A DNA stretch of 34,368 nucleotides from Bacteroidales bacterium (GTDB lineage Bacteria > Bacteroidota > Bacteroidia > Bacteroidales > UBA10428): assembly GCA_016926375.1 (NCBI GenBank), contig JAFGOR010000192.1, positions 1 through 34,368 of the forward strand. The letters are read 5' to 3'. The notes beneath the pieces are model-generated. The model was not told the DNA's origin. It saw only the letters and a list, made by a program, of their open reading frames with translations, and did no database searches. Each line of letters opens with the position of its first letter. Positions within the stretch are counted from its first letter, which is position 1. Below are positions 1,142 to 27,010 of the stretch, one piece after another. Made by a program: the position numbers and the translations under genes.

Positions 1142-2938
1142 ATGAGAAAAGCAATTGTAATTATAGGATTGGTATTTTTCTTCCAGGCATTTTCATTTGG
1201 TCAGTTAGAGAAAGAAATAAACTCATCGGTAAAAAAAGTAACTGTATATACGCAAGGAGCTCAAATTGAGAGAGAAGCAACGGTTTCTTTGCTGCAGGGA
1301 AAAATGGTTTTAAAATTAGTTGGACTTTCTCCTTATATTAAAAAAGAAAGCATTAGAATTGATGGGGACGGTTCCTATTCTATACTTAATGTACAGCACC
1401 AAAATGACTATTTAAAAGAATTAGATAAAAATAAAGAAATCGAATCCTTGAAAGACAAGATCGAAGATCTTCAGTTTAAAGTTGAAGATGAAGGGACTTG
1501 GATAAAAATCATAAAAGATAAATTGGACTTTCTTAATGTAAATAAAGAAATCACTGGTAAAGAACAAGCGTTAAACCCAGAAACGTTTAAAACCTTAAAT
1601 ACAATTTATGGGAGCAATATAGAAACATTGAATTTAGAGATGTTGAAGAAGCAGAGATTAGTTAATGATTATCAAAAAGAGATTAACAAACTTAATAATC
1701 AACTGAATTCTTTAAATAGCAAATCTGATTTACCATCGGGGACAATAATAATTACTATTGAAGCGAAACAAACAAAAACCTCGAAGCTTAGTGTTAACTA
1801 CTTAGTTGATAATGCTTCTTGGTATCCTTCATATGATATTAGATTTATGGGAGTCAATAAACCACTTACTGTAACATATAAGGCTAATATCAAACAAAAT
1901 ACAGGTATTGATTGGAATGATGTCAATCTTGTGCTGTCTACAGCCAAAACCAATATATCCGCTCAAATTCCAGAATTTGTACCATTCTACCTGCAATTTT
2001 ATTATCCGGAAATTTCACAAGCTTTACAAGGAAGGGCTGCAGGTATTCAAATATTGGAAGATTCGGGTATTCCGGGCGCTGAATCTGAAATCAGAATTAG
2101 AGGCATCAGTTCAATTAATGACAAAAGCGAACCCTTATATGTTGTAGATGGAGTGCCACAAAGCAATATATCGTCTATAAATCCTAATGATGTTGATAAA
2201 ATTGAAGTTTTAAAGGATGCCTCTGCCACAGCCGTATATGGTTCAAGAGGTTCCAATGGTGTTCTTCTTGTAACGACAAAACAGAACAAAGAAAAATCTT
2301 CAATCCCATTAACAATTACATCGAAAAGAGAAACTTCAAATGAGTACATCGTTGAAGCCCCTCAAAAAATCCAATCAAATGATAAAAATGTAAGTGTTGG
2401 TTACAAAGAAACTGATCTAAATGCGATATTTGAATACCAATCAATTCCCGGTTTATCTGAAAATGTATTTCTAATTGGAAAGATAGTTGATTGGTATAAA
2501 GCCGAATTTATTGATGGAGAAGCAAATGTGTACCTCGAGAATTCTTTTGTTGGCAAATCTTCAATAAATACAAAACAGTTCAAGGATACATTAGAAATTT
2601 CATTTGGAACTGATAATAATATAAGTATAAAACGAGAAAGACTAACAGAGTTCACTGAAAATCAACTAATCGGTTCTAATAAAAAGGAAACAATAGGATT
2701 TAAACTTACACTTAGAAACAATAAGTCATACCCGATAACGGCAAAAATAATTGATCAAATACCAGTTTCAACCACAAAAGATATTCAAGTTGAAACAATT
2801 GATATATCAGGTGGAAAAATGGACACGGATTCTGGTAAAGTTGTTTGGGAGATAGCTTTAAATTCAAATGAATCTAAAGAACTAATAATCAAATATTCAG
2901 TAAAATATCCAAAGGATAAAAAAGTGTTTATTGAATAA
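1142..2938 (+). CDS. MuiA-like / DUF4140-DUF4139 protein with an inserted TonB-dependent-receptor plug-like segment
   Basis: 598 aa, signal peptide. DUF4140-like N-terminus ([33 protein letters not shown]), coiled coil, DUF4139-like [20 protein letters not shown]. Plug motif LQGRAAGIQ...[25 protein letters not shown]...[38 protein letters not shown]4139-like C-terminus. Confidence 0.85.
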
Positions 2939-3127: not shown

Positions 3128-4465
3128 ATGAAACTTAGATTTATCTCCACTTTTATTCTTGTATGTTATACTGGAATAATGTTCTCACAACAGTTCGAAC
3201 TCTTAAAAATCGATCCGAAATTTGAAATTTCAATGAAAAATGATCTAGCCATAGATAAAATGAATAATCTATGGGTTGCTACTGACAAAGGTGTTTTGGA
3301 ATTTGTAAATAATAAATGGAATTTGTATCAAAATGATTCGATTAAATTTCAACATATTGACAAATTGTTTATTGATTCACAAAATCGAATATGGTGTATA
3401 AGTTATCTCCACAACACCTTATCTAAATCATATTTTGGAGGACTATATATGATAGATAACGAAAGGAATATCATTGATTTTTCAGATAAGTTTGAAAGTA
3501 TTTTTATAACTGATATAAATGAAGATGCTGAAGGAAAAATATGGGTTACAACCGGTAAGATGCTAGCGGGTGTTACGAATAAAAAGAATCACACATTTAA
3601 TACCTCCTTAGATATGATAAAAGGTATTCCTATAACAGATATAGCAAGTGATATTGTTGCTAAAAATGCACCTGGTGGGGTTTATAAATTTGATGGATCC
3701 AATTGGAATTGTATGACATCTGACGCAATGATACCGATAAAATTTGTAAGTAAAATAATAAAAGGAAATGATGCATTATTTTTTTGTGAAGAACGCGGAG
3801 GGAAAGAAAGATTAATTAAATATAGTGGGAATGAGTTTATAGACATATCATCCAAAGGTAATTATCCGGGTGATGAAGTACATGATATTGTATCAGACTG
3901 TGATGGAGATTTATGGATACTTACTGCAGACAATAGATTAAAGGTTTTTAAAATTGACCGGAATAATACAATAAATGAGTTTTATAAAATGAATCCATAT
4001 AGATTAGGGATAGGCCGTTTTTATAAATTTGGTGACCATTTATGTCTAACATACTTAGGTACATTTATTGAATTTAACAAGACAACAAATACTTGGATAT
4101 GTCCTCAAAAACAATCAAATCAAAACATTAAATATTTTATAAAAGATGTAACAATGAGTTCTGATGGTTCCTATTATATAGCTGATGGAAAAGGAATTCG
4201 CATATATAAGGACGGAAGCTTTATTGATACAAGGATTTTTGATAAAATAAAAATTGGAATGTTATTCTCTGTTCAAAATGATAAGATATTAGTTGGTACA
4301 AAAGATCATGGGTTATATTTATTGAATCGAGGAAAACTAGAAAAAATAAACAAAGATTTGCATGATCAAGACATGCCGCTAGGATATTCAAATATAAAAT
4401 TAACACAAGGTAATGTTTCATACTTTTTAACAACAAATGGAATCCTTAAAGTTGTAATTGACTGA
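3128..4465 (+). CDS. Exported beta-propeller protein resembling two-component-regulator propeller (Reg_prop) sensors, without a recognisable signalling domain
   Basis: 445 aa, signal peptide; repeated blades such as MNNLWVATDKGVLEFVNNKW, SQNRIWCISYL, EGKIWVTTGKM, DGDLWILTADNRLKVF, GSYYIADGKGIRIYKDGSF. Confidence 0.7.
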   Translation: MKLRFISTFILVCYTGIMFSQQFELLKIDPKFEISMKNDLAIDKMNNLWVATDKGVLEFVNNKWNLYQNDSIKFQHIDKLFIDSQNRIWCISYLHNTLSKSYFGGLYMIDNERNIIDFSDKFESIFITDINEDAEGKIWVTTGKMLAGVTNKKNHTFNTSLDMIKGIPITDIASDIVAKNAPGGVYKFDGSNWNCMTSDAMIPIKFVSKIIKGNDALFFCEERGGKERLIKYSGNEFIDISSKGNYPGDEVHDIVSDCDGDLWILTADNRLKVFKIDRNNTINEFYKMNPYRLGIGRFYKFGDHLCLTYLGTFIEFNKTTNTWICPQKQSNQNIKYFIKDVTMSSDGSYYIADGKGIRIYKDGSFIDTRIFDKIKIGMLFSVQNDKILVGTKDHGLYLLNRGKLEKINKDLHDQDMPLGYSNIKLTQGNVSYFLTTNGILKVVID

Positions 4466-23499: not shown

Positions 23500-25143
23500 T
23501 TACTTTTTGATGATTTTAACAGAATCAGTGAATTTGCCATTGTCAACCCGGATGATGTATTCCCCTGTATGCAGATCGCTGAGATCAACTTGTGCTTCAT
23601 TACGCCCGTAATGTGCTGCGTTCATAGCGGTTTTCTTAACCTCTCGTCCTGAAAGGTCAATAACTCGTATGGTTAATGGAGTCGGGGTCTGCACAAAGCA
23701 GGCAATGGTGGTTTTATTTATCACAGGATTTGGGTAACAGCCAATCAGCCCGGTTTTTCTGTTTCCGTTAATCCGGTCATCAATGCCTGAGGCCCCTGCA
23801 ATCAGATCGAGTCGCTGACCGGTCCACTGGTCAAATCCTGTTGCCTGCATGGCCTCATTTGAAGCGCCCAGCCAGTCCTGTACCACCGATGTATATACCT
23901 GGCGATAGTCGCTAGTATACTTCAGGTTTCCGTTGTTCAGGTCGTTCAGGTTGGGGTTGGTACCCAGAATGCCTCCCTTGAGGCCTTTCCCGAAAAGGAA
24001 TACCGGAGTTGCTGAACCATGGTCGGTGCCATAGCTGGCATTTGAATAAACACGGCGGCCAAACTCGGTAAAGGTCATGGTAAGCACATTGTCCTCAATA
24101 TTCATAGCAGCCAGGTCATCCTGGAAAGCCTTGACGGCAGATGACAGGTGATATAAAAGTGCAGCATGTGTTCCCAGGGTTGCATCGTAGGTTTCAACCT
24201 GTTCGCCATGGGTGTCGAACCCGCCAATGCGGCAAAGGAAAATCCGGGTTTTCAGGTCTCCTTTCAACAGGCGGGCAATAAGCCTGAGCTGGCCCGAAAG
24301 CGTGTTATTCAGGAACGGCTCGGGAGCGCTGAGCGGATATGCTTCAGGATATTCCACAGTAAGTGAATTGCTGCCCAGGTCATAAGCCTCTTTCAGCCTT
24401 CCGGCATACTGGTTCGACTTTTTTTCAAGTTCCATCAGGTAGCGCAGCTCATCACCGGCATGGCTGTCGGGGAACAAAATGGGTGGTTCCACGCCAACGG
24501 TGGTGATCAGATCGTAAAACTGATCCGGGTTGTGGATGTTGATGCCCATGGGAATACCTTCTTCGCGATGAAAGGCGATGGACATCAGGTTTCCCATCTC
24601 AATACCAATGGGGTCGGGCATGTCGTCTGAAGGATATGCTCCGGGGTAACCCGGGTAAGCATGATTGAGAAATCGGCCCATCCAGCCCGATGAATAATCT
24701 GTGGTTGCTTCACCGCCCATCATCACAATATCTCTGCCCCGGAAATGAGACATATTCATATCGGGGTACCCCACGTTTTGCACTATGGCTGCCTTTCCCT
24801 GGTCGTACAATTCCTTGAACCCAATCATGTCGGGGTGCAGTCCAATCTGATCTTCAATGGCCAAAGTAGTGTCTACGTTGATAAACTTGCGTGGTCCGCT
24901 TTCGGGTATAGCAATATTAGCCCTGTAAGTATAATAGGTGTCGTATTGGTTTACGGGTATCAGCGTGTTCAGGGCATCGTTACCGCCGTGTAACTGGATA
25001 AAGATCAGTACATTGTTATTACCATTGGCGGCTGCCGCTTTGAGGTTGCTGTTTGCGGCCAGTAATCTTACAGGCACTCCCGATAACATTACTGAGCCGG
25101 CGGAGGCCATGCCTATGTTGCGTATGAATTTTCTTCTGTTCAT
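23500..25143 (-). CDS. DUF1501 protein with Tat-like signal and C-terminal T9SS type A sorting domain
   Basis: 547 aa; N-term MNRRKFIRNIGMASAGSVMLSG; body NNVLIFIQLHGGNDALNTLIPVNQYDTYYTYR..., MTFTEFGRRVYSNASYGTDHGSATPVFLFG; C-term IGCYPNPVINKTTIACFVQTPTPLTIRVIDLSGREV...LHTGEYIIRVDNGKFTDSVKIIKK. Confidence 0.92.
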   Translation of the reverse strand: MNRRKFIRNIGMASAGSVMLSGVPVRLLAANSNLKAAAANGNNNVLIFIQLHGGNDALNTLIPVNQYDTYYTYRANIAIPESGPRKFINVDTTLAIEDQIGLHPDMIGFKELYDQGKAAIVQNVGYPDMNMSHFRGRDIVMMGGEATTDYSSGWMGRFLNHAYPGYPGAYPSDDMPDPIGIEMGNLMSIAFHREEGIPMGINIHNPDQFYDLITTVGVEPPILFPDSHAGDELRYLMELEKKSNQYAGRLKEAYDLGSNSLTVEYPEAYPLSAPEPFLNNTLSGQLRLIARLLKGDLKTRIFLCRIGGFDTHGEQVETYDATLGTHAALLYHLSSAVKAFQDDLAAMNIEDNVLTMTFTEFGRRVYSNASYGTDHGSATPVFLFGKGLKGGILGTNPNLNDLNNGNLKYTSDYRQVYTSVVQDWLGASNEAMQATGFDQWTGQRLDLIAGASGIDDRINGNRKTGLIGCYPNPVINKTTIACFVQTPTPLTIRVIDLSGREVKKTAMNAAHYGRNEAQVDLSDLHTGEYIIRVDNGKFTDSVKIIKK

Positions 25144-25154
25144 GGCGGTTTGGT

Positions 25155-26834
25155 TTAGAATAACTGAAATTCGGGTGTTTGCATCAGGGCGGCAACCAAC
25201 GTTTCGAGCTGGTTTCTTACCACATCGTCATTACCACCTGAAGTGTACAGGTTCCATTCAGTGGTCCAGGTGGCAGGTGCCAGATTGTCTAAAAACACAT
25301 CGTTGAGGAAGTAATTGTACCGGTCGGTATCTATTTCAACTGCCAGCAGGTTCCGGGTTAAAGTTTGAACCACAGTTTCGGCATCGGAAGGGTTTGAAAT
25401 ATTTCCCGAATTCCTTACCCAGTCGACTATGTCGAGTTGGAAACCGTAATCTCCGCCTTCGTCAAGCCTTCCCATGAGTATGTTGGAGAAATGGTAACGG
25501 TGACCGATGGCATTGGGGGTTATCCAGTCGCGGCTATAGGTAGGTTCCTGGCTGTATGGCGGGTATCCTGATACATCAATGGGCTCATAGAAATCAATGC
25601 CCTGTTCGAGAATCATGGGGAGGATGCCATCAAGGTATGACTTTTGATAAAGATCACTCAAAGATGCAGGCATGTCCACATTAAAGAAACGCAGCGAACC
25701 GACGATGATTTCAAGCGGACTTTTGATGAGAGCACCGATGGAATTGTCGCTGGTAGTCAGTGTATCGGTATCGTAAAAGTGTTCGCTTGCAAGCAATTGC
25801 CGGAGAACGGGTTCCATTTCATAATTGCCGGTTCTGAAAGTTGTTGCCAACGGATTGATGATATCGGTTTCAACTTCCGCTGATATATCCCAGTAAACAA
25901 AAAAGCGGTAAAGCTTTCGGCAAATGAACCGGGCTGTTTCCTCGCGTGCGAAGATCATTTCGATCAGGTCATCGAATTCTTTGATGGCTGCTTCTTTTGT
26001 GGCCAGGTTTTCAATTATCTCGTTGGGCTGAATGGTTTGATTTCCGAAGGCTGCAGTAAACACTTTGGGATTTATATCGTGCCTTACAGCCAGTTCGGTA
26101 GCAGGCAATCCTGTAGAATTTTCGGTTTCAAGTTTGCCGGCAGGAATGTTGGTATCGGGGTCCGGGTTGGTGAAGGTGGGGTCGAACCGCCAACCGGTGA
26201 GCACCCTGCAGGCAGCTTTGATGTCGTCTTCGGTGTAATTGGTGTAATTGCCTTCGGCAAGCTGGGGTCCTCTGCCAATGGAATAAAGTTCGAACATCTC
26301 ACGGGCAAAGTTTTCATTGGGACTGTCCTTATCATTGGTTTCACCGTCGATGTATCGCAGCATGGCATTATCGAGGCAGATTTTTTTGAAAAGGGTTTTA
26401 AAGTTCCCAAAGGCGTAATACCTGAACAAGGCGTTCTGGTAATAAACGGCTTCACTGCTGCCGATAACCGACCATGCCGCAGGCAGGTGGGTATGATAGA
26501 AATAGGTAATGCGTTCCTGCAGGTTATTACCCGATTTACGCATCTGTTCGAGGTGCCAGGCCCTGAAGAAATTAAACAGGGTGTCCTGATCACTGTTAAC
26601 GTCTTCAACAGCAACGGGTTTTGTGGGTGGATTCACCCAACTGTCGCCGGTAAGCACATCAACAGGCGGATCAGGAACGGCAGGAGGGGTAAACAGGGTG
26701 TCGAGAGCCGCTGTTGCAGTAAGTGCAGCAAATGTTTCAATATCGGCCGGCCCGGGACCCCATGTTGCTCTCCGGAGCAGGTGGGCAGCCCCTTTTTTGC
26801 CCAGAACCCCGGTAATCGGATTGAGTGATGCCAT
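25155..26834 (-). CDS. DUF1800 domain-containing protein
   Basis: MASLNPITGVLGKKGAAHLLRRATWGPGPADIETFAAL...NENFAREMFELYSIG...DIKAACRVLTGWRFDP. Internal ATG at 26834 preferred over the 26939 start. Confidence 0.9.
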   Translation of the reverse strand: MASLNPITGVLGKKGAAHLLRRATWGPGPADIETFAALTATAALDTLFTPPAVPDPPVDVLTGDSWVNPPTKPVAVEDVNSDQDTLFNFFRAWHLEQMRKSGNNLQERITYFYHTHLPAAWSVIGSSEAVYYQNALFRYYAFGNFKTLFKKICLDNAMLRYIDGETNDKDSPNENFAREMFELYSIGRGPQLAEGNYTNYTEDDIKAACRVLTGWRFDPTFTNPDPDTNIPAGKLETENSTGLPATELAVRHDINPKVFTAAFGNQTIQPNEIIENLATKEAAIKEFDDLIEMIFAREETARFICRKLYRFFVYWDISAEVETDIINPLATTFRTGNYEMEPVLRQLLASEHFYDTDTLTTSDNSIGALIKSPLEIIVGSLRFFNVDMPASLSDLYQKSYLDGILPMILEQGIDFYEPIDVSGYPPYSQEPTYSRDWITPNAIGHRYHFSNILMGRLDEGGDYGFQLDIVDWVRNSGNISNPSDAETVVQTLTRNLLAVEIDTDRYNYFLNDVFLDNLAPATWTTEWNLYTSGGNDDVVRNQLETLVAALMQTPEFQLF

Positions 26835-27010
26835 AGTTTGTTGGTTTAGTTTATTTGCCAGTAAATGAAAATGATTGTTTAACAGATGATTGCCAATGAA
26901 CGTAATCAGAATAAAGTTACAACATGTTTTGAATTTCACCCAACAGGTTGGTCAATTACATGCATAAAAAAACGCTGATTACGAAAAATTATTATGGTTC
27001 AGTAATTTGT

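Follow-up and report, generated by a model that had tools for sequence, protein, structure and literature searches.

SusC/RagA-type TonB-dependent receptors are 22-strand outer-membrane barrels in which an NTE precedes the Ton box. To our knowledge, the plug and the Ton box are normally seen solely as parts of outer-membrane pores. In Bt1763, the Ton box reads DEVVVTG and lies after the NTE (PMC7782687). A case outside transport is PorE, a non-transporter for which TonB coupling has been proposed (PMC12204202). MuiA, a family defined by DUF4140 and DUF4139, has been linked in Pseudomonas aeruginosa to envelope stress, swarming and biofilm (PMC10418997, PMC7603352), and these links fit an envelope role while being silent on any plug.

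Here we describe a protein encoded in a 34,368-nucleotide stretch of DNA from a Bacteroidales bacterium (the window) that brings these families together. With MuiA (TIGR02231) it shares the whole body, the domain order and the helical hairpin, but it differs in bearing a plug in a DUF4139 loop; in the MuiA paralogue of the same genome (contig C209, L013) this loop is short and free of a plug. With the SusC/RagA receptors it shares the plug sequence and the putative lock residues, but it has no NTE, Ton box or barrel. PorE is comparable in that an NTE-type domain (NTE-like carboxypeptidase) occurs outside a transporter, whereas PorE is a lipoprotein tethering the outer membrane to peptidoglycan, and the parts of its description consulted make no mention of a plug (PMC12204202). 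A further parallel in architecture comes from YfbK/vWA proteins of Bacteroidota (L194, L201, L205, L210, L216), which are also barrel-less and carry the same SusC N-terminal modules; in these the module is N-terminal to the vWA body, while in the window protein it sits inside a domain loop.

Domain architecture of the window protein

The window ORF almost certainly encodes a MuiA-family protein with an inherited SusC-type plug in one variable loop of DUF4139. The protein (598 aa) is read in a single open frame at positions 1142–2938 of the forward strand, on which all its features lie, and was assigned with Pfam and NCBIfam: it scores 290.2 bits against the MuiA model TIGR02231 (cut-off 112.6), and both DUF4140 and DUF4139 are present. 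It starts with a signal peptide-like N-terminus without a lipobox cysteine (1142–1204; read from the sequence, with a model helix at residues 2–17), followed by DUF4140 (residues 33–131, 1238–1534; PF13600, E 3.3e-20) and by a long helical hairpin or coiled coil (residues 90–193, 1409–1720), for which AlphaFold places helices at residues 90–135 and 146–193, mostly at pLDDT 80–92 away from the turn. The DUF4139 match (PF13598, residues 216–591, E 1.4e-48) is split by the plug into a first part at residues 216–289 (1787–2008) and a second part at residues 386–591 (2297–2914).

The insert between them (residues 290–384, 2009–2293) was recognised as a SusC/RagA-type plug by PF07715, TIGR04057, PDB matches to SusC and Foldseek. 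The Pfam Plug match (PF07715, residues 290–374, E 2.7e-16, 60.4 bits, cut-off 23.9) covers positions 24–107 of the 107 in the profile, the first ~23 being missing from the insert. The SusC signature TIGR04057 is passed with 58.2 bits (cut-off 46.2), and the sequence matches in the PDB, to SusC 8aa4 (E 8.6e-24) and to RagA, are confined to residues 290–388. The SusC/RagA model TIGR04056 matches only partially (151.9 bits, far under its cut-off of 368.25), and Pfam found neither an NTE (PF13715) nor a barrel family in the protein. These scans agree with the first-pass annotation, which had read a plug inside a MuiA/DUF4139 protein in one uninterrupted frame and had noted that a β-barrel was lacking.

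We also modelled the structure. The full-length AlphaFold model had a mean pLDDT of 60.8, with about 28–51 in the plug region, values too low for reading the packing of the plug against DUF4139. A model of the plug by itself (mean pLDDT 58.8) reached about 66–79 in the C-terminal half, which shows the expected strand-helix-strand order, and stayed below 50 in the N-terminal half. When this model was submitted to Foldseek, the top 14 matches were all SusC/RagA, with 54% identity to 8aa4, a ranking that largely mirrors sequence similarity.

Because a signal peptide is present while a lipobox cysteine and a barrel are absent, the protein is more likely to be soluble and periplasmic, as far as can be predicted from its sequence. 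For the same reasons a role as a surface scaffold, one of those first put forward, is not favoured. The other initial suggestion, contact with TonB or SusD-like partners, did not gain ground for the window form either: the window protein has no Ton box motif, nor do 15 of the 16 members of its clade (a weak pattern match occurs in L074), and no SusD lipoprotein was detected among the part of the window ORFs scanned with Pfam. The genome does encode TonB_C proteins. No conserved neighbours were found around the gene among the relatives compared, and an operon partner was therefore rejected. Downstream of the gene, at 3128–4465, lies a 445-aa protein whose only Pfam match is Reg_prop (a two-component-regulator propeller repeat). 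Further along, at 23500–26939 on the reverse strand, a DUF1800 protein stands beside a DUF1501 protein that bears a type IX secretion tail.

The plug is shared by relatives and kept under selection

When GTDB genomes were searched with the latter half of DUF4139, 16 relatives were obtained. The plug is found at the identical position in 15 of them, all from other Bacteroidota genomes and including Bacteroidales MAGs, Flammeovirga and Paludibacter, so that the survey of DUF4139 proteins called for at first reading did reveal a recurrent insertion. A whole-genome search located the same insertion in L026, L036, L038, L039 and L047; four of the 16 relatives (L059, L060, L067 and L068) are apparently on the same contigs as L047, L026, L038 and L036. 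One relative is truncated by the end of its contig and still includes the plug (L073). In another (L069:4828-6633), which keeps the plug, two open stretches are separated by an in-frame stop, the result of either pseudogene formation or a sequencing error.

In a tree of the body without the loop, computed by a quick method, the window clade was composed of 15 plug-bearing rows and one plug-less row, L070, in which the plug has been lost (SH-aLRT 100), and its sister was an NTE-type clade (support 97). For pairs with unsaturated silent sites, dN/dS was 0.13–0.27 in the plug and 0.03–0.09 in the body, that is, about 2–8 times higher in the plug, which indicates that the plug is kept under purifying selection but with weaker constraint. 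The arginine of its IRG motif and the lysine of its VLKD motif are invariant (16/16 of the window clade).

A variable DUF4139 loop carries SusC N-terminal pieces

We collected and classified the loops of 106 MuiA proteins, a set enriched for long loops because these were fetched on purpose. Loop length ranged from 15 to 217 aa. Forty-four loops were short and featureless, 22 carried an NTE and a Ton box, 21 a plug, nine an NTE without a Ton-box motif by the pattern used, six a Ton-box motif only, three an NTE, a Ton box and a plug, and one a plug with an internal Ton box; Pfam confirmed PF13715 and PF07715 in example loops. The three-module form is complete in L148 and L149, where the Ton box follows the NTE as in Bt1763, and marginal in L143. 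The internal motif, DEVVVTGYS, lies within the variable part of the plug of a MuiA protein (L136:362-2242).

A fairer figure than this enriched set comes from a sample of the phylum (74 strong DUF4139 matches, taken as the listed rows with E <1e-30, own genome excluded), in which 29 carried a long loop insert (span above ~1,090 bases), and all 29 inserts were an NTE, in most cases accompanied by a Ton box, a plug, or the two together. A Ton-box-like motif was present in 8/50 short loops against 0.02 expected from shuffled loops and in none of the bodies, a descriptive figure only, since the pattern was picked after viewing the loops and some of these are related. Our results show that the DUF4139 loop of MuiA in Bacteroidota has repeatedly acquired SusC N-terminal pieces, a broader pattern to which the window protein belongs as one form. 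The pairing of DUF4139 with a plug was not described in the open-licence literature searched, though the architecture may already be recorded in domain databases.

The plug of L122 shares 78% identity over 108 aa with a SusC encoded in the same genome; the window plug is at most 53% identical to the SusC plugs of its own. A tree of the plugs, built from best-scoring stretches (98 columns, a short and poorly resolved alignment), rejected a single clade for all MuiA plugs (p-AU 0.0019) and allowed the window group as one clade (p-AU 0.37). The capture in L122 is recent and separate. This resemblance, together with the rejection of a common clade, shows that the MuiA loop captured SusC pieces on at least two separate occasions. 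Most forms may derive either from one ancient insert of NTE, Ton box and plug that was trimmed differently, or from many captures.

A second family of barrel-less carriers

The YfbK/vWA proteins of Bacteroidota carry the SusC-type modules at their N-terminus. One of them, L194, belongs to the genome of the window (contig C189) and has an NTE and a Ton-box-like stretch; L201 has an NTE, a Ton box and a plug, and L205, L210 and L216/L186 have a plug, although some vWA loci are cut at the flank and part of their N-termini are incomplete. They thus add a further family to the reuse of plugs in barrel-less proteins that had been suspected at the outset, when some Bacteroidota M56 peptidases and MG2-type proteins were named as putative carriers, and in both families relatives have in common a SusC module fused to a non-barrel envelope protein. 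The MuiA-plug architecture is a genuine variant of plug reuse and belongs to a wider pattern, in which barrel-less envelope proteins reuse the SusC N-terminus. Near a vWA-plug gene, at L186:4309-4875 (reverse strand), we observed a 189-aa protein made up largely of a plug domain, its N-terminus being signal-like. Most of the remaining short plug ORFs of the relatives resemble truncated or broken receptors.

Discussion

We tentatively propose that the plug/NTE module docks MuiA to the SusC/TonB system. The SusC piece would act as a docking module that places the body of MuiA at the SusC/TonB machinery, on its periplasmic side, where TonB would bind, and possibly pull, the forms with an NTE and a Ton box; the NTE has been implicated in contacting TonB (PMC12204202). 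Plug-only forms such as that of the window would dock inside or beneath a SusC-type barrel, or bind to another plug partner. Pulling of the window form by TonB is unlikely because the Ton box is missing; its plug may bind to the barrel of a SusC or have a structural role only. Closed SusCD barrels without their plug have been observed in vitro by cryo-EM (PMC7782687), which makes it conceivable that a plug acts in trans. In FhuA, the plug residues R93 and R133 are predicted to lock onto glutamates of the barrel (PMC11658791), and by position we equate with them, putatively, the two basic residues that are invariant in the window clade. Docking is favoured by these residues, by the Ton-box motifs, by long inserts being exclusively SusC N-terminal modules, by the purifying selection on the plug and by the TonB_C proteins of the window's genome; the lack of a Ton box in the window clade, the faster evolution of the plug, its loss in L070, the unconserved neighbours and the abundance of SusC donors speak against it, and the conserved residues may serve folding only.

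It is also possible, though we would not call it probable, that the plug is a tolerated passenger: the loop would be permissive and SusC donors abundant, and pieces taken up by recombination would persist as a harmless fold with no partner and decay. With up to 90 plug matches in a single genome, SusC genes are numerous enough for chance capture to be plausible, and the wide range of loop lengths, the plug evolving faster than the body, its loss in L070 and the recent capture in L122 from a SusC of the same genome are consistent with this. Against a passenger speak the purifying selection on the plug, with its key residues intact in 16/16, its retention across Bacteroidales and Flammeovirga, the restriction of long inserts to SusC N-terminal modules, the persistence of Ton-box motifs in short loops and the recurrence of the same modules in YfbK/vWA proteins.

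Rather improbable, in our assessment, is that the SusC leader makes MuiA itself a TonB client on which force is exerted, with the window form as a derived variant that lost its Ton box. The complete leader of L148 and L149, the many loops with an NTE and a Ton box, the enrichment of Ton-box motifs in short loops, the NTE-type sister clade and the proposal made for PorE (PMC12204202) would agree with it, while the window clade without a Ton box and the nine NTE inserts without the motif, by the pattern used, do not. Finally, a chimeric assembly in which part of a susC gene was fused to muiA, conceivable in a draft genome of 294 contigs, is rejected as virtually impossible, since the relatives carry the identical junction in independent genomes and assemblies, with silent-site divergence.

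Our results hint that barrel-less proteins can tap into the outer-membrane transport machinery. On a broader scale, MuiA and YfbK/vWA could be non-transport TonB clients of Bacteroidota sharing an exchangeable SusC leader (NTE-Ton box-plug), an idea that we consider unlikely; if it were true, the Ton motor would act on non-pore proteins or be shared with them. Recurrent capture at a single loop provides a natural series for the study of domain uptake and trimming. If the plug and the Ton box are kept by barrel-less periplasmic proteins because they serve a function, the Ton system of Bacteroidota would extend beyond transport, and the roles of MuiA and YfbK/vWA would gain a concrete, testable link.
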